Shown: positions 1,514 to 60,212 of the stretch, piece by piece
Numbering within the stretch: position 1 is the stretch's first letter
How the letters are laid out: each line of letters opens with the position of its first letter
Origin: Progne subis subis
Lineage: Eukaryota; Chordata; Aves; Passeriformes; Hirundinidae
Length of the DNA: 64,000 nucleotides
Assembly: GCA_022316685.1 (NCBI GenBank)
Contig: JAKJHU010001669.1
Span: 1-64,000 of the forward strand
Reading direction: 5' to 3'
Position numbers and translations under genes: made by a program
Notes under the pieces: model-generated
The model's input: the letters and a program-made list of their open reading frames with translations, nothing else
What the model was told of the DNA's origin: nothing
Databases searched by the model: none

Positions 1514-2634
1514 ATTCAGAACTTGTTTAACAGGAACACCCCTTTGGAGCCTTCACAATTTTAAAGGTTATGTGAAAAATGAGACAATGCTGAATTTTAC
1601 TGTGGCAAATGCCGCAGCGTGGACATCAGGTTTCACAGTTGCCCAGGCTGATGGAGGCTGGCAGTGTAAAATTATAGAGCAACCTGATGATACGCTTACT
1701 TCGCCATCTGAAGAATTAGACTTCCTTGGATGTATGAATGCCAGCTCTACGAATAGAAGTAAAGGAAGTTGGTGTCCTTTGAACCCCCAGAGAGCAGCGT
1801 CTAAATATACATAGCCAGAAATGGGTTGCAATAAATTCAGCTTGACTATCTAGTAGCAGTGTACACCAACAACTTTATTCCAAATGTAATTTGACAGGCA
1901 AACCAACGTGACACCTTCCACCAGGAATATTTTTAATATGTGGGGACCATGCTTGGAATGGAGTCCCAGCCAGCTCACATGGGGGCCCATGTTATTTAGG
2001 GAAGCTTGCCCTGTTTCACCCTAACATAAGCGCATTGATGACTTTAGCAAAAGTTACTTGGAGAAAACATGCCATACATGAGTTGGACTGTACAGACATA
2101 AAAGATCCTAAATTCTGGTCCCAAGCTAGGACAGTGTTAACATACATATTTATACCTGGAGGAACACCTGCTAGAGCAAAGACCACATTAAAGCAGATAG
2201 CATGCTGGAAAAATCAGAATTGAATTTAACTAGTCAAATTTTAGGTAAGCTATCAGTGGATGTTACCAGTGTTAATCATGCTGTTTTGCAAAACTGTGCT
2301 GTGATTGATTTTTGCTTTTAATACATAACCATGAGTGTGAAGAGTTTGAAGGAATGTGTTGCATGAACCTGTCTGACCATTCTGCATCTATTCACAAAAA
2401 AAATTGCAATTAATGAAAAACAAATTACATGATGTAAAAGAAAGTGATAATGTATTTAGAGATTAGTTAAGTAGCCTTAGGATTATAAGATAGCTGAAGT
2501 TTGTTATTAAACCAGGTTTGTTATATTATTACTTACATTAGTAGGATTATTAGTACTAAGCTGTGTAATGTCATGTAATATGTTGCGTAAGACAATATCT
2601 AATGCTCAGCTTGTGCAAAAGAAAAAGGGAGAAT
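1514..2634 (+). pseudogene. env: ERV-2 env remnant (SU end and TM)
   Basis: Decayed retroviral envelope on the plus strand. The open piece 1572-1814 resembles surface-subunit sequence with several N-glycosylation sequons. A second open piece at 2035-2223 covers the fusion-peptide end of the transmembrane subunit. Near 2280-2380 the frame carries a remnant of the immunosuppressive-type helix (LQN then a CX6CC cluster, CEEFEGMCC), the signature of an alpha/gamma-type transmembrane subunit. A hydrophobic membrane anchor follows at about 2520-2590. Stops and frameshifts are frequent, so it is not functional. It ends at a polypurine tract (2618-2634) directly before the LTR at 2635, as expected for env. 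Its left part is cut by ERV-1. Confidence 0.65.
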
Positions 2635-3018
2635 TGTAGCAGGATTTTTGGAGACAGACTCAGAGAGGCCTGACAATGCTGGGAAAGCTATGTTGTTTTA
2701 GTGCTGTCAAGGACATTGATCCTAAGAACCAGCACGAAGAGCCTGGGAACAAGCTGTTGGCCCCTCAACAAAGTGTAAACAGGTAACTGCAAAGGAATGC
2801 TTATGCAGATAACACTGGCCAATAGTATAGCCCCTTGGAGCTCATGGACACGGAGATAGCCAATGACGTAGTAAAATGCCGCATGAACAGCTTATGCACT
2901 AGAATGATATATATAGAAAAGAACCCTGTGTACCCTCAATAAACGAGCATGCACCATTGCTTCTGTGAAAAAGGTGTCTGACTCTGGCTGCTCCCAGTGT
3001 TTTTTTTTTTTTTAATCA
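2635..3018 (+). mobile_element. ERV-2 3' LTR
   Basis: Begins TGTAGCAGG immediately after a polypurine tract (AAAAGAAAAAGGGAGAAT) and ends AATCA. It has a TATA-like ATATATATAG at about 2908-2915 and AATAAA at 2938-2943. A second copy lies inverted at 53144-53529. A run of 13 T precedes the 3' end and is followed by satellite sequence without an obvious target duplication. Confidence 0.8.
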
Positions 3019-3710
3019 CCCCTTTACTCAGGTAAGAGATATGATGAGAAAGAGTGTGAATGAAAACAACCGAGGTAATTTGGAACTGGTGTGATTGAGA
3101 CCAAATTGACTGAGATGCAATGAGGGGCACTGAAAAGGACCAACACTTGCTAAATTACTCCGATTCAAAGGCTAACATTAGGCAAGAAATGAAAATAAAA
3201 GAAGGAGAGGAAAAGAAATTGAAGAAATGAAAGCTTAAAACGAAAATGGGTAAATTTTGAAAGCATGTGAAAAGTCAAAAGTGGATGGGTCGACAAGAAG
3301 TGCAGGGAAAGGGACGTAGGCTTGCCCAATTACTCTTCATTGAAATCGCAAGATTTCATTCCCATATCAAAAGGAAGTCTTCCTTTCAGAAAATGGTATG
3401 AAATCTTGAACACAAAGTCTAACAAACGCTCAGGAGAGGAGATATGATGAGAAACAAAGTCAAAGAAAACAAAACCAAGAAAATCTGGAACCAGATTTAT
3501 CGAGACCGAGTGGACTGAGATGAAAGGTGGGACAGTGAATTGAACAACACTTGTCATATGTACTCCAAATCAAAGGCTAACATCAGGCAATAAACATAAA
3601 TAAAAGTGGGTGAGATAAAAGAAATTGAAGAAATGCAAGCTTAAAATTAATAAACAAAATTTTGAAAGCTCGTGAAAAGCAAAAATGAATGGGATGACAA
3701 GACGTGGAGG
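3019..3710. repeat. ~410-bp satellite, block 1 (about 1.7 copies)
   Basis: The anchor GAGATATGATGAGAAA recurs about 400 bases apart (near 3038 and 3439), and the same monomers fill 58154-60212. Each full monomer contains a hairpin segment (here about 3345-3405) whose arms read AAGATTTCATTCC and its near complement. It is AT-rich and noncoding. It is bounded by LTRs on both sides (2635-3018 and 3711-4034). Confidence 0.85.
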
Positions 3711-4034
3711 TGTGGTATTTCTTCACAGACTAGACGACCGCCGATGGCAAAAAAGAAAGAGCCTGCTCTTTTTCTGGGAGGGAAAATATTGCTTTATTCT
3801 CCAGTCCTGCCCTAGCTTGGCTGGAGACCTTTCCCGATCAGTGCCAGAGTGCCAGGCCCCGCCCATGCTCGGGCTTTTTCCCCAGGGGGCAGGGCCCAGA
3901 GACAGGCACAAGACATCACCCAGTCAGGGAGGAGTGGCAGTGGAAGAGTTAGGTTACAGCTGAATAAGGACAAACCACATGACACAGATTACAAATCTGA
4001 TGAAACACAATATAAACCCAGTTAATGCATTACA
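3711..4034 (-). mobile_element. ERV-3 3' LTR
   Basis: TGTGG...TTACA on the plus strand, the same length as the 5' LTR at 10921-11244 and alignable end to end, sharing blocks such as TTTATTCTCCAGTCCTGCCCT and the terminal TAATGCATTACA. The polypurine tract abuts its right edge. Confidence 0.85.
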
Positions 4035-4291
4035 ACGTTTCCCCTTTTCTTATTAAATTAAGAAGGGAAGGCTCGGTTCATGGGAGATGCTCAGAGTTCA
4101 GACGTTGAGTACCTTTAAAGTTGCAGAAGAAAAATGACCTTAAATGCAAACAAACTGTTTAAAAAAACACTACTAGTGAATAATGATAATTAGAAGGAGA
4201 AGGTTTGGTGCTTTCTCCTCCTCCAGGCAGCACTGGCCACCTGTGGGGCCTCTGCAGGTGTTTTTGCAGTTTTTGGGATGAAAGTTTTCAC

Positions 4292-5026
4292 TCACTTGGC
4301 TGGCACCCACTTGGGACCTGAGGGAGTGGACACACAGGCGTACCCATGACCCCAGGTGATCAGATCATGAGGACCCTCTGTTTCCCTGGTTGCTGGATCC
4401 TTTACCATTACCAGTGGCTTTGCTTTCAGCTGCAGTTGGCAGTTCTCTCTGAAATGGCACACAATTGCTGGGTTAAGATTTTCAAATGTACAATTTAAAA
4501 AGTTCAGCATGAACAAGGCTTTGGACAACTGGATCTGGGGTGTTTCTAGTTTGAGACTGATGTTGTTTTTGAGGACCCTTTTGAGATTTTGGTGGGTCCT
4601 TTCCACGATGGCCTGACCTGTTGGGGAGTAGGGGATGCCTGTTTTGTGCTCTACTCCCCATTGCTGCAGGAAGCTTCTGAACTCCTTGGATGTGTATGTG
4701 GGTCCATTATCAGTTTTTATTGGTTTGGGGATGCCCAGGAAGGAGAAAGCCTGTATTAGGTGTTTCATGGCATCACTGGACTTCTCCCCTGCGTGGGCAG
4801 AGGTATAGACAGCTCCAGAAAAGGTGTCTACAGATACATGGACATATCTTTGCCTACCAAAGGACATGATGTGGGTCACGTCTGTCTGCCACACCTCACA
4901 GCTATTCAATCCCCTGGGGTTTGCTCCTGCACTCAGGGCTGGGAGTGCGTGTTGCTGGCACGAGGGACACATTGACACAATTGCCTGAGCCTGTTCCCGA
5001 GTTAGGTGGAACTGGCAGACTAGGCC
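4292..5026 (-). pseudogene. pol: ERV-3 integrase, catalytic core intact
   Basis: Minus-strand integrase part of pol. After the solo-LTR interruption the frame reads the end of the HHCC zinc domain (HLTREQ, then CPSC) and continues through the DDE core. The first Asp is in TDVTH, the second in TDNGP, and Glu is in VERTH, with exactly 35 residues between the second Asp and Glu. It then passes a C-terminal domain ending VPAK and a stop. This piece alone is an uninterrupted frame of about 245 codons. The whole gene is broken upstream by the inserted LTR at 5027-5730 and by frameshifts in reverse transcriptase, so no working enzyme is expected. The nearest relative in the window is the ERV-7 integrase (54660-55617). 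Confidence 0.9.
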
Positions 5027-5730
5027 TGTGTAGCGGTGCATGGTTTGTTTTATTCAGTTATGTGATTTTATATTGAACTTTTGTAATGGTTTGTTCCTTG
5101 TACCCCCCTATCTCTGTAATGGTTCATACTTGTTTACTCCAAAGTGGGTTCAGTTCGTTATGTGTCAATCATCCCGTCCCCCTTATTCCCAGTTGTCAAT
5201 CCCCTCTCTCTCCCTTTGGGCGCCCTGTCTATCACTCCAGGACCCTTCCCTGGCTTCCAGAAAGCTCCAGGGAAGGCGTCGAGTGGTAGGCTGGGGCCCA
5301 AGAGATCCCCTCCTACTGTTTTGTGGTTGGTTCCTAGTTCTAAGGTTTACACCCCCAGTTACACCCCCATGTGTTGTAATTGGCTGACGGGTTGTCGCCA
5401 CCCGTGTTTCCACCCCACTTTAAAACTTATGCTCAGCTGCTGTCGGGCTCTTCTGGGCAGCAGATCAGAGAGTGCTGAGCCTGTGCTCCCTCTCCCTCAA
5501 TAAATCCTCGTTAAACCCTGCTCAGGAGAGTCGCCTCTTCCTTCGGTCACCGCGGTCGTGCATTCCATCTTTCTGCCTGTCGCTGGTGTGGGGAATCAAG
5601 ACCCCACAGGGAGGAGGTGGCTTGTCCAGCCTGCCACCCGACCGCCACCTGACCTCGCCACGTTGCTGCAGTGCAAGAGGCTGAGCTAGCCTGTGGCTGC
5701 ACTGGTCAGCGCAAGGACAGCACTGCGACA
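5027..5730 (+). mobile_element. Solo LTR nested in ERV-3 pol, opposite orientation
   Basis: A 704-base plus-strand LTR starting TGTGTAG and ending GCGACA, with a TTTAAAA TATA-like box near 5419 and AATAAA at 5499-5504. It splits the minus-strand pol frame: RNase H ends at 5731 and the integrase zinc domain resumes at 5026. GGCC occurs on both sides (5023-5026 and 5731-5734), consistent with a 4-base target duplication of gammaretrovirus type. No internal genes remain, so it is a solo LTR formed by LTR-LTR recombination. Confidence 0.85.
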
Positions 5731-6663
5731 GGCCTGGTGCATTCTGGTGAAAAAGCTGATGGCTGATTTTGGCTTGTCCAAAGATGTCTGGGAGTGGGGC
5801 CATCTCCACAGGCACAGCATGAGCATCAGCCCTTCTGTTGCCCTCGGCTATGAATCCTGGTGAATTGGTGTGTGATCTGGTGTGCATCACGTAAAATTGT
5901 CGCTCTTGGTGGAAGATCAGATTTACTAGTTTTGAGAGCAAGTTGAAAAGTGCAGAATTGGAGACCTCACTCAGTACCACTTGTTCAGCTCTGGATACTA
6001 CACCTGCTACATAGGCCGAATCTGTGATCACACTGAAGGGTTCGGAAACTTTTCAAAATCTCTAACAACTGCAGCCAACTCAGCTACCTGAGGTGATCCT
6101 TCCACCTCGACAATATCTTTCTCCCTCTGCTGAGTTTGAGGATTTTTCCATGTTATTACTGATTTATGAGACGTTCCAGATGCATCTGTAAAAACGGTTA
6201 AAGCCTTTAAAGGCCTCCTGCTGTGAACACTTTTTAATGATAATTTGAACTGAATTTGTTCTCTAAAGAATTTGTGAGCAGGCCGATTAATTGAAATTTG
6301 ACCTGTGTTGCTATCCAGAACAAACTGCAAAGCTTTATTTTAATGAATCAGGTGCTCCAACATTGCTTTTGTGATTTGGCCCGAGTTTATCTCAATTGAG
6401 ATGTGAATACACTCAAAATCACATCCTGCCAGCTCCCTGATCTGGGTCATGGCTTTCCAGATCAATTCTGCTACCAGTTCCTGTGGCCTGGTCATTCTTT
6501 TGGACCGGTGATGACTGAGGAAAACCCACTCTATGATTAAGAGGGGATCCCTACAGTCTTTGTCCGTTGTTGATTTTTCCACTCTTTCCCACTGAAAAAT
6601 CATCCGTGTAAGTGTGGCAATTTGCCTAAAATGATGAATTTGAATGGCAAGTCTGATTTGCAC
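5731..6663 (-). pseudogene. pol: ERV-3 RT connection and RNase H
   Basis: Minus-strand continuation of pol between the polymerase thumb and integrase. It contains RNase H motifs: Asp in FTDAS, Glu in VAELAA, Asp in ITDSAY and the final Asp in NRRADA. The parts lie in three overlapping frames (6663-6340, 6330-6028, 6031-5731), so at least two frameshifts separate them. The same domain is less broken in ERV-7 (54197-54700) and aligns well. The frame is cut at 5731 by the nested LTR. Nonfunctional as it stands. Confidence 0.85.
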
Positions 6664-7829
6664 CTGTTGGCCTGTCTGGTGGCCATACAGTCCTGTACCT
6701 TTTCCAGGGCTGCTCTTGCCTCTTGGGTGAGGGTCCTTGGAGAACTGAGCTCTTCTCCCCCTTTTAAAAGATTAAAGAGGGGGTCTAGGTCTTCAGTGGT
6801 CAGACCTAGCCAACGTCTTACCCAATTTAAGGACCCACACAACTGCTGGACATCTGCTAAGGTCCTGATGTTATTTTTGACAACCAATTTTTGCAGCACA
6901 ATGGTCTGCTTACCAGTCTCCAGACCCAGGTACTTCCAATTTGGCATCCTTTGAATCTTTTCCTCCTGAAGCTCGAACCCTGCAGCAACCAAAGAATCGA
7001 TTGTCAGGTCAAGCGTGTGGGACAGTAAGCATCATTGGGGGCACACACGAGCACATCATCCATGTAGTGCAGGATGATGGCTTCTCCTACAGCTGCACGC
7101 ACTGGGGACAGCAGGGAAGAGAGGTACCACTGACAAACAGATGGTGAGTTTTTCATCCCTTGGGGAAGAAATTTCCAGTGATATCTTTTCCTCATGGCTT
7201 CTTGGTTGAGGGTAGGAACCGAGAAGGCGAAATGTCAGGGTGCAGAGGGATCTGGAAAAAACAATCTTTTATATCAGTAATTGCCAAATTCCAATTTTGG
7301 GGGAGCATTGCTGGGGATGGCATCCCTGGTTGGAGAGAACCCATGTCCTCAATGACATTATTAATTTGACGGAGATCGTGGAGGAGCCCCACTTGGCTTT
7401 GTTTGCCTTTTTTATAACAAAGACTAGGGAATTCCACAGAGATGAGGTTTCCACAATGTGGCCTTTAGCTAGCTGTTCATCCACTAGCTCCTGAAGCGCC
7501 TTCAATTTTTCTTTACTGAGCGGCCGCTGCTCTACCCAGACTGGTGAATCAGTTTTCCAATTGAGTTTCTGGGTAGGGCGCTCTTCAGTAGCCGCAGCCT
7601 GAAAAACCGGGGGGGCATCTGGAATGCCAATCGTGACCCCCCACTGGGCCATCAGGTCTCTCCCCCACAAGGGCTCTGAATAATCTAAAACAAATGGACA
7701 CAGTGTAGCTAATTGTCCATTTGGCCCCTTAATTTGCACAACATCTTTTGATTGTTTTGCCCATTTAATTCCCCCTATACCTTCTATGTGCCCAGACAAA
7801 TTTTGCAGTTCCCAATGTGAGGGCCACAT
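6600..7829 (-). pseudogene. pol: ERV-3 protease end and reverse transcriptase
   Basis: Minus-strand frame pieces 7829-7269, 7437-7192, 7195-7004 and 6992-6600. The first begins with the end of a retroviral protease ([10 protein letters not shown] flap and C-terminal segment) and runs into the RT fingers ([11 protein letters not shown], then a GHI-E motif). The palm holds the YMDD catalytic motif near 7065-7080. The thumb (QKLVVKNN, QQLCGSLNWVR) follows. Several frameshifts separate the pieces. Motif order and spacing match betaretrovirus-like pol. Not translatable as one protein. Confidence 0.88.
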
Positions 7830-8470
7830 CCTTTCTGCACAATCATTACATGCACGTCTGTGTCCAAAACCCCTTTGAGGTTTATTACTTCCCCACTGTG
7901 ATGGACCTCACACCCTATTATTATGTTTGTCCCTCCCAATAACTCGTGTGGGGCAATCATCAAGGTGTTTATTCCTTGTGCTGTTTTTTTCAGGGAACGG
8001 GTCAGGTGCTGGAGTTGCCTGAGCTATTATCTGCCCCTTAGGCAGAAACAAAGGTGGACAGACACAGTGCAGCCAGAGAACTCGTTGTTTAGGGTTCGAT
8101 GAGACGAGACCGGAAGGATCTCGATCTCTCTCGGTGTGTACTTGGCGTCCCCAAGGATGACATACTTACTGCCAACTTGCTGCCAGGAGCCTAGCACCTG
8201 TAGATCCAATGAACCTAAATGCCAGTCTGTGTCACTTAGGTTCAAGGACTCTGTCAGTTGCAACCTAAAAGTCTTTTGGAGACATTCTGTGGTTAGACAG
8301 GGTCTGCTTACGTCATGATCTGAAAGGGTCATATCTAGTGACTTCTGCTGAAAGGTAGAACTGATTATAACAGGATTATTTAACATTTGCATTTTTAGTT
8401 TTTTCTAACTGCACCCCTTCCCCCCCCCCCCCCGCCCAGGATTTGCCCTATTTATGTCGGCACGCTGCAC
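7830..8470 (-). pseudogene. pro: ERV-3 pro region (degenerate protease, possible dUTPase remnant)
   Basis: Between gag and pol on the minus strand. Around 7850-7905 one frame reads [10 protein letters not shown], where the retroviral aspartic protease active site DTG would be expected, so the catalytic Gly appears replaced by Asp; a frameshift follows before the protease C-terminus at 7829. The upstream frame 8392-8027 (121 codons) is unassigned. Its GSLDL segment and position could mark a betaretrovirus-type dUTPase remnant, but I cannot confirm this. Runs of C and T at 8420-8500 lie at the gag-pro junction, where a slip site would be. Confidence 0.55.
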
Positions 8471-8479
8471 AAGTAAGCG

Positions 8480-10125
8480 CTAACATTTTTTTTTTTTGAA
8501 AAATTCCCTTTGAACTCTTGAGACCTCCCCCCCATTGTCCTGAAAGTCCAGAAATTGCTTCTTTAAAGGGCATTGAGATGCCCAATGTCCAGCCTGATCA
8601 CAAAGGAGACACGTTGTTCTTCTTTTGGGCGGTGGCTGTGGCGCAGGCACAGGTGACATGGCATCTGCTGCGGCAGCTCTTTGCGGTGGTCTGAATGAAT
8701 CTCTGGAACTGTGATTAAGGTGTGCACTCATAATAGGGACCTTCTGGGTACACATGTGCAGCATGTCATCTAAGGTTGGAGCCGGTTTCATGGGCAGGCT
8801 GAGGATGGCTGCCTTGCACTGTTCGTTTGCATTGGTCAGTGCCATCTCCTCCAGGACCTGTTCTTGGGCTCCTTCATTCTTAACCTGTAACTCAATAGCT
8901 TGGGTTAATCGCTCCACAAATGTTACAAAAGGTTCTGATGGAAGCTGCTTTATTTTACTGTAAGGTTGGAAGGACCCATCGGCTGGATTGAAAAAATGCT
9001 TTGAAAGCAGTCTCTTTAATGCGTTCTAAAACAGCTAAAGGAATTTCTTGAGCTTGCTTGAGTGCTGCGACCCATTCACCATCACCACATAGATGTTCTA
9101 ATCGAATTGGCAAATTATTATTATCAACAGCTGTTTCAGGATTTTGCCAAAGCTCCGGGAGTAAATCTCTTAATCTTTTTTTCCATGTGGAGTCCCAAAG
9201 CCTAAACTGTGTGGATGAAAGGAGGGCAGAAAAAAGCTGCCGGAGGTCAAAGGGAACAATAGGATTCCCTGCTAGATTTGCTTTTAAAAGGCTGTGAAGG
9301 TATTCACTTTGCATCCAAATTTGGCCTGAGCTTTGCACAAATCCTGAATCGCTTGTTGGGAAGGGGTCCCAATTACTGTGGACAGCACCCCTCCTTTTTG
9401 ACCCTCGGTATGTGACAGGGGCGGCAGAAAAGCCGGATCACTTCCTGCTTCCGGGTTCCCAGCTCCCCCCCCATCCCCTCTGGGGCGTGGGAACTGGGAC
9501 TGTGGGAGGGGAAACCGTGGGAACCAGGGGCAGGGAGGGGCTGGAGGCTTGAGTCACACGGGGAGGAGTTGGAGGGCGGAGGTTTGAGGGTAGGGGGCAG
9601 AGTCAGAGGAGAGGGCGTGCCAGGGGTGGCACCAAGGGAAGGGGGGTCTGGGGAGAGGAAGGGATTGTGAAAGGGATTGCGGGAAGGAGGGACAGACAAA
9701 GAGAGAGGCTCCTTGTGACTCGAGAGCACATGGCTTCAGCCATTTTGGGGAACAAAGGAGTCCCCTCCATCTTGTGACCCCTCCTTCCTAACTAAGACTA
9801 ACTTGGGATTCACTAAGATGGGGGTTCTGTGTACTCAGACTGCTGCAAAAGCAAACCAAACCCGGGGTTTACAAACTGGGGAAGAAGGAGTTTTGGGGAA
9901 AGTTTAGGAGATTCTCGAGGAATATCCGATTTTGGGAAGGGATTTTGGGTCAGGATAGGGAGAAACTGAGTAAACTGGGGAAAGTCTGCAAGGAACCGGC
10001 TTTTTTTTCTTTTCATTTTGTTTTTGCATTGCAAATAAAATCTGCAAGCCCCAAAGAGCAAAATTTGCTTTTTCTTTATCATTAGGGGAGCTTGATTGAG
10101 ACAATTTTTTACAACAGTTTCCCAA
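8480..10125 (-). pseudogene. gag: ERV-3 gag
   Basis: Minus-strand gag in several frames. Matrix starts GNCCKK at 10125, a myristoylation-type start, but the first codon is TTG where ATG is expected. A proline-rich linker (about 9729-9373) follows. The capsid N-terminal part (9338-8955) contains WQNPETAVDN-like helices. The capsid C-terminal part (8917 onward) leads to one nucleocapsid zinc knuckle, CLLCDQAGHWASQC, matching CX2CX4HX4C. Frameshifts separate matrix, linker and capsid, and short homopolymers (C at 8420-8433, T at 8487-8497) mark decay near the end. Layout is betaretrovirus-like. No intact protein is expected. Confidence 0.85.
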
Positions 10126-46128: not shown

Positions 46129-49107
46129 TCTAGCCAGGGAGAGGCACGGGAAAACCGGGTCTATTGGACGGTGTGGATTCGATGGCCTGGCACATCAGAG
46201 CCACAGAAATACGAAGCTTTAGTTGATACTGGTTCGCAGTGTACACTGATACCATCGGAATATGTGGGGACAGAACCTATTTCCATTGCCGGGGTGACGG
46301 GGGGATCACAGGAATTGACTCTGTTAGAAGCTGAGGTGAGCCTGACCGGGAAGGAGTGGCAGAAACATCCAATTGTGACTGGCTCAGGGGCCCCGTGTAT
46401 TTTGGGCATAGACTTCCTCCGGAATGGCTATTACAAAGACTCTAAAGGACTCAGGTGGGCTTTTGGAATAGCAGCTGTGGAGGCAGAGGGCATTAAGAAA
46501 TTGAATAGCTTGCCTGGACTGTCGGAGAACCCATCTGCAGTAGGACTCCTAAAGGTAGAAGAGCAACGAGTTCCAGTTGCCACCTCGACGGTGCACCGCC
46601 GACAGTACCGGACAAATCGAGATGCCGTGATCCCCATCCACAAGATGATCCGTGAGCTGGAGAGCCAAGGGGTGGTCAGCAAAACCCACTCACCCTTCAA
46701 CAGCCCCATCTGGCCTGTGTGCAAGTCTGACGGAGAATGGAGATTGACTGTGGACTACCGTGCCTTGAACGAAGTGACTCCACCATTGAGCGCTGCTGTG
46801 CCGGACATGCTGGAACTCCAGTATGAGCTGGAGTCCAAGGCAGCAAAATGGTACGCCACCATTGACATTGCTAACGCATTTTTCTCCATTCCTCTGGCTG
46901 CAGAATGCAGGCCTCAGTTTGCTTTCACCTGGAGGGGCGTGCAGTACACCTGGAACCGACTGCCCCAGGGGTGGAAACACAGCCCCACCATCTGCCATGG
47001 ACTGATCCAGGCTGCACTGGAAAAGGGTGAGGCTCCGGAGCACCTACAGTATATCGATGACATCATTGTGTGGGGGAACACGGCAATGGAAGTGTTTGAG
47101 AAAGGAGAGAAGATCATCCAAATTCTCCTGAAAGCTGGTTTTGCCATCAAGCAGAGCAAGGTCAAGGGACCTGCCCGAGAGATCCAGTTCCTGGGAGTAA
47201 AGTGGCAAGATGGACGGCGGCAGATTCCCACTGAGGTCATCAATAAGATCACCGCAATGTCTCCACTGACCAGCAAGAAGGAAACACAAGCTTTCCTAGG
47301 CGCCATAGGTTTCTGGAGGATGCACATTCCTGAGTACAGCCAGATTGTGAGCCCTCTCTACCTGGTCACCCGCAAGAAGAACGATTTCCACTGGGGCCCT
47401 GAACAGCAACAAGCCTTTGCCCAGATCAAGCAGGAGATCGCTCATGCAGTGGCCCTTGGCCTAGTCAGGACGGGACCAGATGTGAAGAACGTGCTCTACT
47501 CAGCAGCCGGGAACAATGGCCTGTCCTGGAGCCTTTGGCAGAAGGTGCCCGGGGAGACTCGGGGCCAACCACTGGGATTCTGGAGCCGAAGCTACAGAGG
47601 GTCCGAAGCCAACTACACTCCAACAGAGAAGGAAATCTTGGCCACCTATGAAGGAGTTCAAGCTGCCTCAGAGATGATTGGCACAGAAGCACAACTCCTG
47701 CTGGCACCTCGACTACCGGTGCTGGGGTGGATGTTTAAAGGAAAGGTTCTCTCCACCTATCATGCCACCGACGCCACGTGGAGCAAATGGATTGCCCTCA
47801 TCACTCAGCGCGCCTGCATTGGAAACCCAAATCACCCTGGGATTCTGGAAATAATTACAAACTGGCCGGAAGGTGAAAACTTTGGTCTCATGGATGAAGA
47901 GGAGCAGGAACAAGTGACACGTGTTGAAGAAGCTCCACCATACAACCAACTGCCAGCAGAAGAAACTTGCTACGCTCTTTTCACTGACAGTTCCTGCCGC
48001 ATCGTTGGGATGAAACGAAAGTGGAAAGCAGCCGTATGGAGCCCCACACGACAGGTTGCAGAAGCCACTGAGGGAGAAGGTGGGTCAAGCCAACTTGCTG
48101 AACTCAAAGCTGTTCAACTGGCCCTGGACATTGCTGAAAGAGAGAAGTGGCCAAAGCTCTACCTCTACAATGATTCATGGATGGAGGCCAATGCTCTGTG
48201 GGGTTGGCTGGACAGGTGGAAAAAGGCCAATTGGCAGCGTAGGGGAAAGCCAATCTGGGCTGCAGATGAGTGGAAGGACATTGCCACTTGGGTAGAGAAG
48301 CTACCTGTCAAAGTCCGTCATGTAGATGCCCATGTCCCCAAGAGTCGGGCTAATGAGGAGCACCGAAACAACGAGCAGGTAAATCAAGCTGCAAAGATAG
48401 AGGTGTCAAAGATAGACTTAGATTGGCAACACAAGGAAGAGTTGTTCTTAGCTCGATGGGCCCATGATGCCTCAGGTCACCAGGGCAGAGATGCCACCTA
48501 TAAGTGGGCCCAAGACGGAGGGGTGGATCTAACCATGGACAGTATTTCTCAAGTTATCCATGACTGTGAGACGTGTGCTGCCATCAAGCAGGCCAAGCGA
48601 GTGAAGCCCCTATAGTATGGTGGGCGATGGTCCAAGTATAAGTATGGGGAAGCCTGGCAGATTGACTGCATCACCCTTCCCCAAACCCGCCAAGGCAAAT
48701 GCTACGTGCTGACCGTGGTGGAAGCCACCACTGGATGGTTGGAGACCTACCCTGTGCCTCACGCTACTGCCCGGAACACCATTCTAGGCCTTGAAAAGCA
48801 AGTTCTTTGGAGGCATGGTACCCCTGAGAGGATTGAGTCAGACAATAGAACTCATTTCAAGAACAGCCTCATCAACAACTGGGCTAGGGAACATGGCATT
48901 GAGTGGGTGTACCATATCCCCTATCATGCACCAGCTTCAGGGAAAGTAGAAAGATACAATGGACTGCTAAAAACCACCCTGAAAGCACTGGGTGGGGGAT
49001 CATTCAAAAATTGGGAGCAGCATCTAGCAAAGGCCACCTGGTTAATTAACACCCGAGGTTCCACCAACAGAGCAGGCCCTGCCCAATCTGCGCCCTACAT
49101 ACAGTAG
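46129..49107 (+). pseudogene. pol: ERV-5 pol (ERVL class), one internal TAG
   Basis: ERVL-class pol in one frame with gag. Protease has a perfect active site, LVDTGSQC (about 46222-46245). Reverse transcriptase has the YIDD motif at 47050-47061 in a long uninterrupted palm and thumb. RNase H follows from about 47960 (FTDSS with Asp, then LAELKAV, NDSW, VDAHV), with conservative changes around two of the four acidic sites. The integrase zinc domain ends CETCAAIKQAK. A TAG at 48613-48615 falls just before YGGRW, then integrase resumes: Asp (WQID, 48664), Asp (ESDN, 48841) and Glu (KVERY, 48949), with 35 residues between the last two. A stop follows at about 49105. There is no env, which is normal for ERVL. 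Confidence 0.92.
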
Positions 49108-49450
49108 ATGGAGAGAAAGTCCCAGTAGTACATGTAAGAGGTTTGTTAGGGAAGACAGTTTGGATCAATTCTACTTCAAGTACAGAGGATTCCATCTGTG
49201 GGATTGTCTTTGCTCAGGGACCAGGCTGCACATGGTGGGTAATGCAGAAAGATGGAACCACACGATGTGTACCTCAGGGAGATCTGATTGTTGGGTGAGA
49301 ACCGTGTGTAATTATCGCTGTGTGCTGAATGGTACTGCCACTGTATGTAGCTGTATATTGCATATTGTTTTTTATATAGATGTATGTGTGTGTAGAGCTA
49401 GAGTATGTATTAGTTTTAGTAGATTGACAATATGGGGATAAGGGGTGGAA
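49108..49450 (+). other. ERV-5 3' internal region and polypurine tract
   Basis: Remnant of the integrase C-terminus and untranslated sequence. The tract GGGGATAAGGGGTGGAA ends at 49450, exactly before the 3' LTR. Confidence 0.75.
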
Positions 49451-50114
49451 TGTCCTAGGGTAACTTTATGATGCTTGTATCCCCAATCGTCTGTTCTGTT
49501 TGTGCTGTATATTGAGTCCTGTGCCTTTAAGACTGGTTCTAAGAACAAGGAGAAGCGCGGAGTTTGTTTTGAGAAAACTGCCTGACTCCTCCACATTCTT
49601 CTGCGGACGGTGTGTTCGGCGGAGGCTTGGAGAGACTGCAGGACAGAGATCTTTTTGCTTTTAGTTAGTTTCAGCTAGCTAGGGCAGAGAAGTTCCCTGG
49701 ACTGTTTTTTTTTTCCTTTCTTTTTTCTTGGAACTGTTTAAACCTGCTCTGGACTGAAAACCCAGGGGAGCACTGGAGGCTGCACCTGCGGCCCACCGGG
49801 GCCTGGACCTCGGCATTTTCCAGCAGCGCCGGAGGGACTGGGACTGAGGAGAGACTGAGAGAGAGCCGAGCTCCACCCACGGCAAGGACTTTCTCAATTT
49901 GCCATCTCACTCCAGAACGAGAGGTTTTATTGTTTAATATTAATTCATTCTTTATACTTGTATGCACTTTATTTGTTTAGTAAAATAGTTTTTTCCACTT
50001 TCCTCCAAAGAGATTTTTTTTTCGGACTGGTTGAAGGGAGGGGCCACTTGAGTTTGCTTCCCAGAAGGATCCTATACAGGGGTTTTCCCCAAAATTTGTC
50101 TCCAAACCAGGACA
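49451..50114 (+). mobile_element. ERV-5 3' LTR (different family from its 5' LTR)
   Basis: 664 bases, TGTCCTAGGG to CAGGACA. The same family occurs at 57391-58153 and as a fragment at 28468-28692. It does not align with 43473-44158. Confidence 0.85.
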
Positions 50115-50845
50115 GACCAATTTGAGATCAGCTGCTCTGGCCAGAAATGTTCCTCTTATCTTGTCCGGAGCTGACCATCTGGCTTGTTATCTTCAGAGGG
50201 CTTGCGGTGTTCACTGCATGCAGAAGGCTTACTGTGACCCTGTTCAGCATGAAACCACTTTGTCAGCAATGCACGAGTGAAAACCACCCCAGCTTGGCTC
50301 TTACTTGGCAGCTGCTGCAGCCACACAACTTAGTAAGGTATCTTTGGGTTTTCACCAGCTTAAGTCTTTAGTAAATAAATTCCAAGTGGACACTAAACAA
50401 GTATTTCACTAAGAGATGATGAAATGTTAAAATTAAAAACAAGTCAGATTGCAGATGTAATTATACTACATTAGAAACTCCAGTTGGTGGGGATCCATTC
50501 ACTGTATAGAGAGAAATTAGTAATCAAGGTAATTACAAGGACAGAACATTTGTTTCCTGCATGCTTTTCCAGGCTTGGAACCAACAGAGTTGACTACATG
50601 GAGAGTTGACTAGGGTGAACTCGGAACTCACTCTCTCAGGCAGGAGACTAGTTAAGAAGTGTTACTGATAACAAAGAAGAAAAATTATACAACATTGATT
50701 ATTACAAATTTATTATTATTATTACTACTATAATTATTATTATTACTTTGTTCTCTTCTGCTTTTAGCATTTGTCTCTTACAAGTCTTCATCCATTCCTG
50801 TAGAAACCTAACTCTTTTTCCATTCCCCTGTGGCATCTCCCATCC
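50115..50845. other. No gene recognised; AT-rich at 50690-50760
   Basis: Unassigned flank. 50700-50755 is (TTA/ATT)n. The part next to 50845 reads as 3' untranslated sequence of the CEPT1-like copy. Confidence 0.4.
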
Positions 50846-53143: not shown

Positions 53144-53529
53144 TGATTTTGAAAAAAACCACGGGGAAGAGCCGGAGTCAAACACCTTCTTCACAGAAGT
53201 AGTGGTGAATGCTCATTTTATTGAGGGTACACAGGGTTCTTTTATACATACATCATTCTAGTGCATAAGCTGTTCATACGGCATTTTACTACATGTCATT
53301 GGCTGTCTCCTCATGTCCACAAGCTCCAGGCAGCTATACTATTGGTTAGTGTTACCTGCATAAGCATTCCTTTGCAGTTACCTGTTTACACTTTGTTGAG
53401 AGGCCATCAGCTTGTTCCCAGGCTCTTTGTCCTGGTTCTCAGGCTCAACATCCTTGACAGTGCTGAAACAACAGAACTTTCCAAGCACTGGAAGGCCTCT
53501 CTGTGTCTGTCTCCAAAAATCCTGCTACA
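53144..53529 (-). mobile_element. ERV-6 5' LTR (ERV-2 family)
   Basis: Reads TGTAGCAGGATTTTTGGAG on minus from 53529 and ends AAAATCA at 53144, with TATA-like TATAAAAG and AATAAA in the same order as in 2635-3018. It abuts, head to head, the interrupted pol of ERV-7 at 53530. Confidence 0.8.
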
Positions 53530-54195
53530 GTCAAGGAACAAACAATCGTGCTTCAGCTGATTGTCATCAAAAACAATCCCAAGACGCTCCACAAACTGCA
53601 ACAGCTCTGTGGTTCCATTAATTGGGTTCGACCCCTTCTTGGAATTTCCTCAGAAGACCTCGCTCCGCTTTTTAACCTTCTGTGAGGGAGCTGTGAAGTC
53701 AGTTCTCCTAGGAGCTTGACCCCTGAGGCAAGAAAGGCAATTACCTGCATCCAAGAGGTTCTGTCAGCCTGACAGGCTCACAGGTATGATCCATCTTTGC
53801 CATTTCTGTTTGCAGTGTTAAGTAGAGTCCCACATTGGAGTGGACTGATTTTTCAATGGGACCCGGACTTAAAAGACCAGTTGCTCATCCTCGAATAGGT
53901 TTTCCTTCAAGCACAACCAACTAAAACAGTAACCACACCGCAAGGAACCATGGCAGCAGTCATCTGTAAGGGCAGGGCTCACTTCTGCTCTCTTGTGGGG
54001 TGTGACCTTGCATGCATCTACATGCCATTGGCAACTACCGAGGAGCTAGAGTTTCTGCTCCAAAATAATGACAACCTTCAGTTCACCCTAGATATCTATC
54101 CAGGAAAAATTTCCATCCATATCCTGGCCACAAATTATTTAAAGCAGAACTTCATTTGGTTCCCAAATTCATTCAAGGTAGAACTCCTCTTGAGC
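53530..54195 (+). pseudogene. pol: ERV-7 reverse transcriptase thumb and connection (5' truncated)
   Basis: Starts inside RT at QTIVLQLIVIKNN and QQLCGSINWVRPLLG, the thumb region also seen in ERV-3, then a connection segment (WDPDLKDQLLIL-like, LGCDLACIYMPL) with frameshifts near 53690 and 53890. The fingers and palm with the catalytic motif are missing because ERV-6 adjoins at 53529. Confidence 0.8.
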
Positions 54196-54196
54196 T

Positions 54197-54700
54197 GTGA
54201 CAGTCTTTACAGACGGCTCAGGGTCTTCTCATAAGTCAGTCATGACTTGGAAAGACACTAGGACACAGAAGTGGGAGTCTGACGTCCGAGTAGTGGAAGG
54301 TTCTCCACAAATTGCTGAGATGGCAGCCGTTGTCAGGGCATTAGAGAAGTTCAAAGACCAACTGTTTAACCTAATCACAGATTCAGCATATGTAGCTGGT
54401 ATAGCTATGAGGGCTGAACATGCCTTTTTAAAGGAGGTGTCAAATAGAAACCTTTTGCTTTCTAAACTGGTTTATCTTATCTCCCACAGAAAGCAACCAT
54501 ATCATGTCATGCATGTGAGGTCGCACACTGACCTTCCCGGTGCTATCGTGGACGGCAACAAGAGAGCAGACGCACTGGCAATGGCGGCACAAACACCAGC
54601 CCTCCCAGACACGTTCCAACAAGCCAAGCTCTCCCATCAATTTTATCATCAGATTGTCCCAGCACTAGTGAGGATGTTTCACCTAACCAGGGAACACGCC
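54197..54700 (+). pseudogene. pol: ERV-7 RNase H
   Basis: One open frame holding all four acidic positions: Asp in FTDGSGSS, Glu in IAEMAA, Asp in ITDSAYVAG and Asp in NKRADALA. It continues into the integrase zinc domain (HQFYHQ, FHLTREHAKAVV, SCPQ). A frameshift near 54770 separates it from the integrase core. Closely related to ERV-3. Confidence 0.9.
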
Positions 54701-55617
54701 AAAGCTGTGGTAGGATCATGTCCACAATCATATCTGATGTGTTCATGTCTACCAATCATACCAGGTGCCCTTTTTAGACAAAGGCATCAACCCAGGAGGG
54801 CTCAATAGTAATGAACTGCGGGAGATGGACGTTACACATGTTCCATCTTTTGGTAGGCAGAAGTATATTCACATGTCAGTAGATACATTCTCAGGCGCAG
54901 TTTTCACCTCAGCACATGCAGGTGAAAGCATCTGCTTTGTTAAAAGACATTTCTTATTGGCCTTTGCAACTCTGGGAACTCCCCAGAAAATTAAAACAGA
55001 CAACGGCCCCGCCTACTCCTCAAAACAGCTAAAGGCATTCTTCCAAGACTGGGGCATCAAACATAACAAATGGATACTGTAGTCTCCCACAGGCCAATCA
55101 GTCGCTGAGAGGACACATCAGACTCTTAAGAGAGTCCTCCACCAACAGCGGGGAGGTACAGAGACACTTCCTCCCATTGAGAGGCTGCTGCAAGGCACTT
55201 GATGCAATTAACTTTCTAAATTGTTCAAGCACTGAGCCGAACGCCCCCGTCATCAGGCACTTCTCGAATTCAGCCCGAGCTAAGCTTGAAGAGAAGCCGC
55301 CTGTGTTGATCAAGGACCCAGAAACACATCAAATATCAGGCCCTCTTTGGTTGATTACCTGGGGTAGAGAGTACACATGCATATCCATGCCTACAGGCCC
55401 TAGGTGGCTTCCTGCAAAGAACATCAAACCTTACCTAGGACCCATAGACACTAATAAAGCCAATTCTGAGCAAAATACAGAGTCTGCTGCAAAGGTGCAG
55501 CAGACAGCCACTTGGAAGAGGAGGAGAAGATGGCCGGTCCCACAAAAGACAGCTCAGTGTCCTGTGACCAGACAACAGCCAAGACAAGCAAGGCCTACCG
55601 GATGTAACAAAAACTAA
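54660..55617 (+). pseudogene. pol: ERV-7 integrase, one in-frame stop and a frameshift
   Basis: The core frame has Asp in MDVTH and Asp in TDNGP. A TAG at 55080-55082 falls where ERV-3 has Tyr in IPYSP; the frame then continues to Glu in AERTH, giving 35 positions between Asp and Glu if the stop is counted. A second frameshift near 55170 leads to the C-terminal domain (INFLNCSS, LITWGREYTCISMPTGPRWLPAKN) and a basic tail ending CNKN at 55617. Inactive as it stands. Confidence 0.88.
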
Positions 55618-55742: not shown

Positions 55743-55773
55743 ACTACTAAATTGTTGGGTTTTATTGATATAG
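55743..55773 (+). promoter_or_regulatory. Splice acceptor upstream of the cystatin-like ORF
   Basis: A branch-point-like CTACTAAAT (55744-55752) is followed by TTGTTGGGTTTTATTGATATAG, ending in AG at 55772-55773. It lies 36 bases before the ATG at 55810 and about 155 bases after the integrase stop, the place for a subgenomic-RNA acceptor. Confidence 0.5.
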
Positions 55774-55809: not shown

Positions 55810-56460
55810 ATGGAGACAAGTCATATTCTCCTGCTGATTGTTTTTGTCATCACCACCCAGACCGTGGTCTGGGCAATAGAACACCCAGAAACAGATGCTG
55901 CAGTGCAGAAGATGCTGCGATACACTATTGCCCAGCATGACAAAAGTAATTACCATCTGCTCCCAAGCCAAATTGTAAAGGTCATAAAGGCAGAAAAGCA
56001 AGTTGCAGGAGGAATCAAATATAACATAGTGGTGAAATTAAAACAAGATAACAAGTATGAACTATGTAACTTAGTGGTATTTAATTCACCATGGAAGAAC
56101 TCAATACAAATACTAAAAGACCAATGCCAAAAGAGTGAGCCCCCAACCAACACTCCTGATCCGAAAAAGACTGATATAACCACTCAAAAACCTCTAAGAA
56201 CTGACTTTAGACATAAAAGTGAAGACCAAGTCACAGAACAGATAGCTGCTGAAAAAACTTATGAAACTCCTTATTTCTTTGTTATTACTGTAACCATTTC
56301 TTTACTGCCTTTATCCATCTATCTTTATCATTTATATCATCGCAAGCATGTTATTAACGCTGTCTTTTCAGTTTTTCAACAGGGAGGGGAGAACAAACTA
56401 GACAAAGACAGTAAAGGATCAGAGGACGATCCAAATAACCTGCCAAACACCCCCTCTTGA
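55810..56460 (+). CDS. ERV-encoded membrane-anchored cystatin-like protein (216 aa)
   Basis: An intact ORF between integrase and env. Residues 1-22 are a signal peptide. Residues about 26-108 have the order of a type-2 cystatin: a long amphipathic helix (AVQKMLRYTIAQHDKSNYH), a strand, the first hairpin EKQVAGGIKYNIVV, in which QVAGG fits the QxVxG motif except Ala for Val, a strand with Cys86, the second hairpin with Pro94-Trp95, and Cys106. The Cys86-Trp95-Cys106 spacing (9 and 11) equals that of the second disulfide and PW turn in cystatin C and egg-white cystatin. The loop holding the first cystatin disulfide is missing, as is the N-terminal Gly. Residues 109-152 are a hydrophilic linker, 154-177 a transmembrane segment and 178-216 a charged cytoplasmic tail. 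Inference: a captured host cysteine-protease inhibitor, displayed on cells or virions. Inhibitory activity is uncertain. Confidence 0.88.
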   Translation: METSHILLLIVFVITTQTVVWAIEHPETDAAVQKMLRYTIAQHDKSNYHLLPSQIVKVIKAEKQVAGGIKYNIVVKLKQDNKYELCNLVVFNSPWKNSIQILKDQCQKSEPPTNTPDPKKTDITTQKPLRTDFRHKSEDQVTEQIAAEKTYETPYFFVITVTISLLPLSIYLYHLYHRKHVINAVFSVFQQGGENKLDKDSKGSEDDPNNLPNTPS

Positions 56461-56577
56461 AGGGACAGCAGTTTAAATTTCTTTTATCTTACCCCCCTCA
56501 AAAACTTCCCCAGATACCTGTTTCCCATACCCCTTCTTTTCCTAAAGTTCCCTAGTGCCTAAATAATATCTTGATAG

Positions 56578-56600
56578 TTTAAACTGGTTTTTCTTTTTAG
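56578..56600 (+). promoter_or_regulatory. Splice acceptor upstream of env
   Basis: TTTAAACTGGTTTTTCTTTTTAG, a pyrimidine-rich acceptor ending 27 bases before the env ATG (56628). Separate from the acceptor at 55773. Confidence 0.55.
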
Positions 56601-56627
56601 AAGCAAACCCCAAAGGACCCCTCTGAG

Positions 56628-57390
56628 ATGAGAGGCAGTTACCATGTCACAGTGATGCGGATGCTCCTCACACTCCTCATGCTCCTCAACATCAAAGCAT
56701 GGAAGATCGGACAACCACCAGAAAATGTGTGGGTGACATTTGCCAAGACCCTCCAGCAAGACAGTTTGTGCCTGTTCATGGGCTCCGTCAGCAGTCCTCT
56801 GTCGTCGTGCCTGGTAGGAATCCCATTCGGAATCAACGAGCCATCACCTCTGCATCCCTTTGCAGGGAACTGGCCTGCCCTGCCCACTGCAGAGAAAGGA
56901 CCAGCCCGAGGAGCCTGGGAACAGTGGGTGAAGCTCATACCCAAAGCTACAACAGACGCTCACAAAGAAAACCCAGTAGCAAACTCCAAGTCCCAAGAGC
57001 TTGATCTGCTTGTCTCAGCAAAAGCTAGTCATTGTTTTAATTTTTACTTTCAAAATATGGCCTCTAGTTACAAAAATCAAAGTAAACCCCCTAAACGAAA
57101 TTTACAATTTAGACAACTGGTGCAACTACACAACAAAAATTCCATTTGACACTTCTGGCTTCCTTATTCCCAGGGCACTTCCCAAGGGCGTGTTCCGAAT
57201 TTGTGGCGATAGGGCGTGGGCAGGAATCCCTTCCCACATCCAAGGAGGTCCATGCACCTTTGGCCGACTTACAACACTCACCCCAAACATTACTCTCTTA
57301 CAAGAATGGAAACAAAAGAATAAATTTGCCCGTCCAAAAAGATCCTATACCAAATTTGACGAAAATTTTGATGCCACCCTTTTTGATTGG
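56628..57390 (+). pseudogene. env: ERV-7 env, surface subunit, truncated and frameshifted
   Basis: The ATG at 56628 gives a short charged start and a hydrophobic signal (MLLTLLMLLNIKAW), then NVWVTFAKTLQQDSLCLFMG, as in alpha/gamma-type avian ERV envelopes. The frame changes near 57080; the second frame continues NWCNYTTK, GFLIPRALPKGVFRICGDRAW and PCTFGRLTTLTPNITLLQEW, and reaches a furin-type site, RPKRS (about 57333-57347). The transmembrane subunit is missing: the ERVL LTR starts at 57391, about 40 bases beyond the cleavage site. Confidence 0.8.
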
Positions 57391-58153
57391 TGTCCTTGGG
57401 TGACTTTATGATGCTTGTATCCCCAGTCATCTGCTCTGTTTGTGCTGTATATTGAGTTCTGTGCCTTTAAGACTGGTTCTAAGAGAAAGGAGAAGCATGG
57501 AATTTGTTTTGAGAAAACTGCCTGACTCCTACACATTCTTCTCTGGACGGGGTGTTCAGCAGAGAATTTTTTTTGCTTTTAGTTAGTTTCAGCTAGCGAG
57601 GGCAGAGAAGTTCCCTGGACTGTGGTGGGGTTTTTTTGGTGGTTTTTTTTTTTTTTTTTTTTTTTGGTTTTTTTTTGTTTTTTTTTTTTTTGTTTTTTTT
57701 TTTTGTTTTTTTGTTTTTTTTTTTTTTGTTTTTTGTTTTTTGTTTTTTGTTTTTTTTTCCCTTTTTCTTGGAACTGTTTAAACCTGCTCTGGACTGAAAA
57801 AACCCAGGGGAGCACTGGGGGCTGCACCTGCAGCCCACCGGGGCCTGGAGCTCGGCATTTTCCAGCAGCGCCGGAGGGACTGGGACTGAGGAGAGACTGA
57901 GAGAGAGCCGAGCTCCACCCACGGCAAGGACTTTCTCAATTTGCCATCTCACTCCAGAACGAGAGGTTTTATTGTTTCATGTTATTCATTCTTTATACTT
58001 GTATGCACTTTGTTTGTTAAGTAAAATAGTTTTTTCCACTTTTCTCCAAAGAAGTTTTTTACTGGACTGGTTGGAGGAGGGGCCACTTGGGTTTGCTTCC
58101 CAGAGGGATCCTATACAGGGGTTATCTCCCAAATTTGTCCCTAAACCAGGACA
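57391..58153 (+). mobile_element. ERVL LTR (family of 49451-50114), with expanded poly(T)
   Basis: TGTCCTTGGG to CAGGACA. It matches the ERV-5 3' LTR along its length, but a run of T with scattered G at about 57628-57765 adds roughly 100 bases. The left flank is ERV-7 env and the right flank is satellite; no 5-base target duplication is visible. Confidence 0.85.
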
Positions 58154-60212
58154 GAGTGATTAAGACCAAATGGATGGAGATGAAATGAGGCACAATGAAA
58201 AGGACCAAAACTTGCCAAAAGTATTCCAATTGAAATGCTGCAATCAGGCAAGAAGTGGAAATAAAGGAAGGAAGGAGAGAAAATGAAATTGAGGAAATGC
58301 AAGCTTAAAATGAAAAAGCAAAAAATGTTTAAAGCATGTGAAAAGCAAAAAGTGAATTGGATGACAAGAAGTGCAGGGAAAGGGGTTGAAGCTTGCCCAA
58401 TTAATCTTCCTTGAAACATTGAAAACAGGGAACAAAGTTTAACAAACGCTCAGGAAAGGAGATATTGTGAGAAACAGTGCGAATGAAAACAACTGAGATA
58501 ATCTGGAACCAGAGTGATTGAGACCAAATAGACAAAGATGAAATGAAGGTTACTGAAAAGGGCCAACACGTTCCAAACGTACTCCAACTCAAATTCTGCA
58601 ATTAGTCAAGAAATGGAAATAAATGATGGAGAGGGAAAAAAATCTAAAAAATGAAAACTTAAAATGAAAAAGAGAAAATTTTGAAAGCATGTGAAAAAAA
58701 AAGTTGATGGTATGAGAAAAAGTGATGGAAAAGGGATGGAATCTATCTACATTAATCTTCATTGACTTTGCAAGATTTCATTCACTTTCCCAAAAGGAAC
58801 ACTTTCCTTTTGGGAAACGGAATGAAAACTTGAAAACAGGGAACAAAGTCTAACAAACAATGAGGAAAGGAGATATGAGGAGAAACAATGTGAATGAAAA
58901 CAACTGAGATAATTTGGAACCGGAGTTATTGAGATCAAATGGACTGAGCTGAAATGAGGGGCACTGAAAAAGGACCAACACTTGCCAAACATATGCCAAT
59001 TCAAATGCTGCAATCAGGCAAGAAATGGAAATAAATGAAGGAGAGGAAAATAAATTGAAGAAATGCAAGCTTAAAATGAAAATAGGAAAATTTTGAAAGC
59101 ACATGAAAAGCAAAAAGTGAATGGGATAATAGGAAGTGCAGGGTAAACAACTGAAGCTTGCCCAATTTATCTTCATGAAAATCTTGAAAACAGAGGAAAA
59201 AAATAACAAACACTCAGGAAAGGAGATATGGTGTGAAACAACCTGAATAAATACAAAAAGGAGAAATTTTGGAACCAGAGTGATTGTGGCCAAATGGACT
59301 GAGCTGAAATGAGGGGCACTGAAAAGGACCAACACTTGCCAAATGAACTCCAAGTCATGTGCTGAAATCCGTCAAGAAATGGAAATAAAAAAAGGAGATG
59401 AAAAGAAATCCAAGAAATGCAGGCTTAAAATGAAAAAGGGAAAAATTTGAAAGAATGTGTAATTACAAAATGAATGCGATGACAAGAAGTGCAGGGAAAG
59501 GGACAGAGGCTTACCAAATTAATCCTAATTGAAATTGCAATATTTCATTCCTTTCCCAAAAGGAAAGTCGTCCTTTTGGGAAAGGGAGTGCAATATTAAA
59601 ATCAGGGAACCAATAAGAAGAAATGCTCAGGAAAGGAGATATGATGAAAAAGAATGCAAATTAAATCAACTGAGATAATTTGGAACTGGAGTGATTGTGG
59701 CCAAATGGACTGAGATTAAATGAGGGGCACTGAAAAGGAAAAATATTTGGCAAACATACTCCAATTCAAATGCTGTAATTAGGCAAGAAATGGAAATAAA
59801 TGAAGGAGAGGAAAAGAAATGGAAGAAATGCAAACTTAAAACAAAAAAAGGAAAAATTTTGAAAGCACGTGAAAAGCACAAAATGGATGGTATGACAAGA
59901 AGTGCAGGGAAAGGGACAGAAACTTGCCCAATTAATCTTCATTGAAATGGCAAGATTTCATTCCCTTCAGAAAGTCTTCCTTTCGGGAAAGGGAATGAAA
60001 TCTTGAAAACAGGGAACAAAGTCGAACAAACGCTCAGGAAAGGAGATATGATGAGAAACATTGCGAATGAAACAACCGAGAATATTTGGAACCGGAATGA
60101 TTGAGACCAAATGGACTGAGCTGAAATGAGGGGCACTGAAAATGACCAACTTTTGCCAAAATACTCCAATTCAAATGCTAACATCAGGGAAGAAATAAAA
60201 ATAAAAGAAGGA
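58154..60212. repeat. ~410-bp satellite, block 2 (about five copies)
   Basis: The anchor GAAAGGAGATAT occurs at 58454, 58865, 59218, 59631 and 60038, giving steps of 411, 353, 413 and 407. Full-length monomers contain a hairpin (for example 59951-59982 region: CAAGATTTCATTCCCTT then AAGGGAATGAAATCTTG, ending near 60005). The 353-base monomer and the first partial monomer lack it. Frames here are repeat artefacts. Confidence 0.92.

Follow-up and report, generated by a model that had tools for sequence, protein, structure and literature searches.

The 64,000-nucleotide stretch of Progne subis subis DNA that we analyzed (the window) contains a 216-codon ORF that lies among retroviral gene pieces and resembles a cystatin. 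This raises the question of whether a retrovirus captured a host cystatin and, if it did, whether the product would still act as a protease inhibitor or would serve another purpose. The original prediction for this locus was host gene capture with gain of a membrane anchor, together with doubt about real inhibition. From the analysis described below, the ORF is almost certainly a cystatin-derived gene of an endogenous retrovirus (ERV), and our best explanation as a whole, a captured cystatin re-used as an anchored binding accessory protein, has in our judgment about an even chance of being right.

An open ORF between the integrase and env pieces of a broken provirus

As originally predicted, the ORF is intact from ATG to TGA and sits between integrase and env, with Pfam matches on both flanks, a position that fits a captured gene (Table 1). 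On its sequence we assign the surrounding provirus to class II, with an integrase closest to betaretroviral ones; the best PDB matches of the integrase core (E 9e-26) are ones that we take to be betaretroviral (MMTV), and a chain named RSV integrase was matched at E 2e-15. The first pol fragment (53500..53682) is presumably the RT thumb, and no gag, pro or remaining RT was recognized beside it. The piece with RNase H and the integrase zinc domain is in a reading frame that differs from those of both neighboring pieces, and the LTR at 57391 belongs to another family than the provirus, one that is also present at 49451.

Table 1. Features of the cystatin-bearing provirus and of its ORF, with positions in the window
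Feature	Position	Strand	Evidence or remarks
pol fragment, RT end	53500..53682	+	5' edge of recognizable provirus; 49 aa 67% identical to second provirus (6911-6765)
pol fragment between RT and RNase H	53950..54234	+	70/76 aa identical to P0003, P0004
RNase H and integrase zinc domain	54197..54808	+	PF00075 6.8e-14, PF02022 3.8e-8; 149/165 identical to P0002
Integrase core, betaretrovirus-like, stop at end	54765..55082	+	PF00665 3.1e-18
Integrase C-terminal domain	55177..55617	+	PF00552 E 2.2e-4, 20.9 bits, just below cut-off 21
Candidate splice acceptor of cystatin ORF	55744..55773	+	AG end, 60% pyrimidine in 20 bases; exon would begin 55774
Cystatin-like membrane protein ORF	55810..56460	+	216 aa, ATG to TGA, zero internal stops
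Signal peptide, residues 1-22	55810..55875	+	hydropathy 2.16; V-W-A precedes predicted cut
Cystatin domain, residues 23-107	55876..56130	+	PF00031; AF2 pLDDT 89-95 (residues 21-110)
First inhibitory loop position, QVAGG replacing QxVxG	55999..56013	+	alignment with host cystatins
Second loop, Pro94-Trp95	56089..56094	+	alignment with host cystatins
Hydrophilic linker, residues 108-154	56131..56271	+	low model confidence
Predicted transmembrane and juxtamembrane segment, residues 155-191	56272..56382	+	best conserved part; 29/37 identical to P0001
Variable tail with acidic stretch, residues 192-216	56383..56457	+	7/25 identical to P0001
Candidate env splice acceptor	56571..56600	+	75% pyrimidine in 20 bases and AG; used by P0002, P0003; exon would begin 56601
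env, SU start	56628..57149	+	56601-57029: 132/143 residues identical to P0003
env SU continuation, other frame, alpharetroviral gp85 type	57001..57390	+	PF03708 5.9e-13; LTR cuts it; ORF extends to 57411
LTR, adjoins env and closes provirus	57391..58150	+	84-93% repeat pair with LTR at 49451; TG..CA ends by eye

Across the pol and env pieces in ∼3.24 kb around the ORF, we counted four changes of reading frame, three among the pol pieces between the RT-RNase H connection, RNase H, the integrase core and the integrase C-terminal part and one in env, and a minimum of one stop, at the end of the integrase core, which corresponds to ∼1 lesion expected per 651 bases and a probability of ∼0.37 that the ORF would carry none. 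With that probability, we rejected the openness of the ORF as proof of selection, and at this locus it may be open by chance. The same counts favor a plain fossil, which would have had its function formerly in the virus and would be open here by luck; the prospects of this alternative being true or false seem to us equal, and it is compatible with an anchored accessory protein as the ancestral function. Set against the fossil is P0001, a diverged relative that is also an open frame, but its openness says little because protein databases contain open frames exclusively.

Other elements were also seen in the window. A second class II provirus lies on the minus strand (9338-4208) with gag (p24), protease, the RT end, RNase H and integrase; its shared pol pieces are 29-67% identical to those of the cystatin-bearing provirus, and its end lies close to the position expected for a cystatin ORF. 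Another ERV type at 46171-50116 has RT, RNase H and integrase, an H2C2 zinc domain (below cut-off) and, by eye, a purine-rich tract; its LTR at 49451 is of the family that cuts env at 57391. Long diverged tandem repeats (58152-60212 and 3027-3710) adjoin both class II proviruses.

The ORF encodes a predicted cystatin fold with a membrane anchor

The family profile search proposed with the original prediction matched Pfam PF00031 to the ORF protein at E 5.4e-7 (30.2 bits, cut-off 22.2), and SQAPI, another cystatin-fold model, scored 30.1 bits, below its cut-off of 31. Among 177,635 PDB sequences, the best solved relative was chicken cystatin (E 5.3e-10), with 28/85 residues identical. In the structure comparison proposed alongside, an AF2 model with host cystatins in the alignment had a cystatin fold (pLDDT 89-95 over residues 21-110), and a model without the host cystatin rows had a cystatin fold at low confidence (pLDDT 51), for which Foldseek ranked chicken cystatin at the top with no match reaching E 0.001. 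We looked for the two contrary outcomes set beforehand, a structure without the cystatin fold and the lack of a significant homologue, and obtained neither.

An unrelated retroviral accessory protein with a chance likeness to cystatin could be argued from the pLDDT of 51, from the Foldseek matches short of E 0.001 and from P0001, which on its own gave no Pfam cystatin match. Against this stand the E values for PF00031 and chicken cystatin; the low-confidence model still ranked chicken cystatin first, and P0001 alone reached chicken cystatin in the PDB at E 0.006. We regard this alternative as exceedingly improbable.

In family profile and fold, the ORF protein agrees with type 2 cystatins, and in its signal peptide it does so by hydropathy alone. 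The hydropathy peaks (residues 5-23 and 155-173) coincide with the signal peptide and transmembrane segment that had been claimed, and the cut predicted after V-W-A relies on a cleavage rule that we assume. QVAGG (64-68), PW (94-95), Cys86 and Cys106 were found at the positions first given for them, and in the alignment with chicken cystatin the Cys-9-Trp-11-Cys spacing equals that of its last disulfide and PW turn. Cys86 and Cys106 are the sole cysteines of the protein and form one pair, whereas type 2 cystatins have two disulfides. A further departure from type 2 cystatins, which are secreted and anchor-free, is the predicted anchor, with hydrophobic residues 155-173 and a model helix at 155-201. 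Host cystatin genes have two introns, and the ORF runs unbroken through the cystatin domain; from the homology and this absence of introns, we infer capture of a cystatin mRNA. The homology, the fold models and the alignment uphold the part of the capture reading that concerns an ERV gene derived from an avian-type cystatin and provided with a membrane anchor.

Searching a viral structure library (BFVD) with the model gave no matches at E 0.001 or better. The top matches, at E 0.021, were B5SXF4 (probability 1.00) and A0A2K9R4X0 (0.98), and a protein of Catovirus with a cystatin domain came at rank 20; given these matches, Catovirus included, other viral proteins of the cystatin kind are already recorded. 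A0A2K9R4X0, a 190-residue viral protein matched nearly end to end (12% identity, poor rmsd), might, on the modeled structure, be another anchored viral cystatin fold.

The inhibitory site is altered in both ERV proteins

We compared the window protein and P0001 with 48 host rows, comprising human cystatin C and 47 avian cystatins hand-picked from the 119 rows besides P0001 in the best 120 of 206 matches, of which a few rows are synthetic. The Q, V and G of QxVxG and the P and W of the second loop are invariant in 48/48 host cystatins; the corresponding residues are QVAGG and PW in the window protein and QVKGN and LW in P0001. The N-terminal Gly, present in 47/47 avian cystatins, is aligned with a gap in each of the two ERV proteins, and in the alignment the first disulfide with its loop (∼20 residues) is absent from both. 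The window protein therefore has the PW of type 2 cystatins and lacks their N-terminal Gly and QxVxG. The S-N-D columns, identical in all 48 host rows and taken by us to be the host cystatin legumain site, read N-Y-H in the window protein and, as aligned, N-D-C in P0001, in which a one-residue shift of the alignment would return N-D to the host columns. Since both ERV proteins are without the first-disulfide stretch, its loss most simply predates the split between them. The doubt first expressed about inhibition is strengthened by these comparisons, with the N-terminal Gly absent, QxVxG altered, and QxVxG further altered in P0001 together with the LW; the missing first-disulfide stretch was not part of that prediction, and its absence, like that of the N-terminal Gly, from both ERV proteins is a new finding.

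These changes bear on the alternative of a working, membrane-tethered cysteine protease inhibitor, which would shield the virus or infected cell from endosomal cathepsins or weaken antigen processing. The predicted cystatin fold and the PW hairpin and first-loop Q..G kept by the window copy are in keeping with such an inhibitor, and bracovirus cystatins are described as inhibiting cysteine proteases and as probable virulence factors (PMC2553070). The missing N-terminal Gly, the V to A change in QxVxG, the QVKGN and LW of P0001, and the altered S-N-D columns (alignment-dependent in P0001) all argue against it, and we consider it rather unlikely. Judged by its residues, the ORF protein has most likely ceased to act as a standard cystatin. 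Cystatins tolerate changes in the inhibitory parts, and weak inhibition by the window copy, which keeps Q64, G68, PW and the predicted fold, is possible.

The membrane segment is the best conserved part of the protein

P0001, known from its protein sequence alone, is 42% identical to the window ORF and has the same architecture, with the missing stretch, the Cys pair and the anchor all common to both. Identities between the two were 6/22 in the signal peptide, 35/85 in the domain, 10/21 aligned residues in the linker, 29/37 in the transmembrane and juxtamembrane (TM/juxtamembrane) segment and 7/25 in the tail, and the TM/juxtamembrane segment differed from the domain with a Fisher p of 1.6e-4. 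The bounds of this segment were drawn after inspection; a column shuffle that takes the best 37-column stretch anywhere in the whole alignment gave a permutation p of 0.00045 (0.045% of shuffles match), the comparison covering two full-length sequences (n=2, the window ORF and P0001). Pfam searches over the segment gave no family above its cut-off, an AGTRAP match in P0001 being below. Plain anchoring requires hydrophobicity rather than identity, so the TM/juxtamembrane segment likely performs a specific role, as judged from this pattern of identity; its conservation could also reflect a constraint on DNA or RNA.

Beyond P0001-P0004, a two-row profile found no protein in the protein database at E 0.1 (1045 candidates). 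DNA pattern searches gave 8 and 103 matches in viral contigs and 164 in genome contigs, with no ORF relative among them. Phage records gave no match to the ORF, and tblastn of the ORF protein against the 64-kb window returned itself alone (limit E 1).

Related gene models in barn swallow and candidate splicing

Three barn swallow gene models (P0002-P0004) carry the first 57-58 residues of the ORF. P0002 consists of the RNase H piece, the ORF first exon and env; P0003 has another pol piece in front of the ORF first exon and env; and P0004 has the pol piece of P0003 and the ORF first exon followed by unrelated sequence, without env. The window is 81-92% identical to the gene models per piece, with the exon of P0003 at 67% as tblastn extended it. 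The order pol-exon(-env) recurs on three barn swallow contigs, each of another length, and is thus present in more than one copy. This recurrence speaks against a non-viral ORF, whether a host gene lying next to or within the provirus or one that the host has co-opted; such a gene would suit an ORF that is open amid a broken provirus, but we hold it to be highly unlikely.

All three models start the ORF exon exactly at the counterpart of 55774, a correspondence based on annotation. P0002 and P0003 share their exon boundary behind residue 57 as well as the acceptor used for env; this agreement therefore reflects either a splice form or a habit of the gene finder. Both fuse codons 1-57 in frame to env (55980 and 56601 in the window), and this fusion would give Env a cystatin leader. 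Separately, the idea that the env spacer is a duplicate of the spacer before the ORF was rejected, its score of 20 being equalled by 165/300 shuffles.

Donor lineage and source of the anchor

In the tree, the window ORF and P0001 were joined (95/93), both on very long branches. AU tests rejected neither the placement of all 47 birds in one clade with the ERV outside (p 0.39) nor that of the ERV with 19 passerines (p 0.48), a group defined after tree inspection whose rows we presume to be passerine from their species names. Mean BLOSUM scores were higher with passerines than with other Neoaves for both the window protein (185.5 versus 170.8; Mann-Whitney p 2.5e-5) and P0001 (133.5 versus 112.4; p 1.1e-6), the rows being non-independent, and mean identities were hardly different (28.0 versus 27.2 residues for the window and 24.5 versus 23.1 for P0001). 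We treat this BLOSUM preference for passerines as a lead only toward the donor.

When bases 1-9500 were searched permissively and without composition correction, residues 87-111 matched 3785-3859 (+) at E 0.018, which we took as chance, and residues 147-184 matched 2493-2606 (+) at E 0.70. A fragment at 1915-2040 (+) shares 52% identity with the gp85-type env piece, and the hydrophobic stretch at 2493-2606, which lies downstream of it, might be an env membrane anchor. For the part of this stretch after its stop, the score with the window segment was reached in 7/2000 shuffles and that with the P0001 segment in 194/2000, values to be read with the caveat that plain shuffling disrupts hydrophobic runs. 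An origin of the ORF anchor from env is a weak lead, which the window segment supports and that of P0001 hardly does.

Discussion

We propose that an ancestral class II bird retrovirus would have captured an mRNA of the avian egg-white (CYT) type of cystatin, placed between pol and env. The copy in the virus lineage lost the first-disulfide loop together with the N-terminal Gly and has a linker, a predicted transmembrane segment and a short tail, features seen in both the window protein and P0001. Its own spliced RNA, made with the candidate acceptor, would yield a type I membrane protein, whose altered loops would bind a host partner in the secretory or endolysosomal path or at the surface, and whose conserved TM/juxtamembrane part would position, retain or remove that partner in the manner of other retroviral accessory proteins. 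The window copy would now be part of a broken provirus. We favor an anchored accessory protein that re-uses the fold, rather than a functional inhibitor of cathepsins, because the inhibitory residues are changed and the TM/juxtamembrane segment is the best conserved part; with parts of the inhibitor site lost and a membrane anchor present, the cystatin was probably put to new use. The binding and trafficking mechanism, taken alone, could as readily be right as wrong. That a lineage of bird retroviruses turned a host cystatin into a genuine accessory gene, with loops re-cut for a new target and the TM/juxtamembrane part acting on that target, we put forward tentatively, at somewhat short of an even chance.

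The capture event would be of a known kind, since the crocodilian ERV CrocERV29 has KIT ligand between pol and env (PMC4299795). Common to both are an ORF from a host mRNA, putatively so here, that is placed between pol and env and is open amid broken viral genes, several copies, and viral coding regions retained beside the captured ORF; CrocERV29 differs in its cytokine gene (the entire soluble form), its ERV class and host, and the purifying selection tested there (PMC4299795). RSV and a walleye virus are given in the same report as the sole others documented by 2014 that keep their own genes beside a captured gene (PMC4299795).

Avian egg-white cystatin (CYT) resembles the ORF protein in fold, last Cys pair, PW turn and, for chicken, the identity given above, but it has the first disulfide and loop, the N-terminal Gly and QxVxG, and is without the membrane anchor and tail. 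Bracovirus cystatins are host cystatins acquired by a virus; unlike the ORF they belong to a wasp polydnavirus, are described as cysteine protease inhibitors with positive selection near the active site, and involve no vertebrate retrovirus (PMC2553070, PMC2784779). Bird ERVs that recombine avian and mammalian retrovirus types exist, and the provirus described here is like them in its mixed pol and env, with a betaretrovirus-like integrase and a gp85-type env; the available part of that report has no mention of a cystatin gene (PMC9967133). Among the matches listed for the open-licence literature (titles and abstract openings), we found no retroviral or membrane-anchored cystatin.

Retroviruses that retain their own genes together with a captured host gene are few. 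If our explanation is true, an anchored protease-inhibitor fold with altered loops would show how a captured gene is given a different function, and many copies of the ORF in which this change can be traced and tested may exist in bird genomes.
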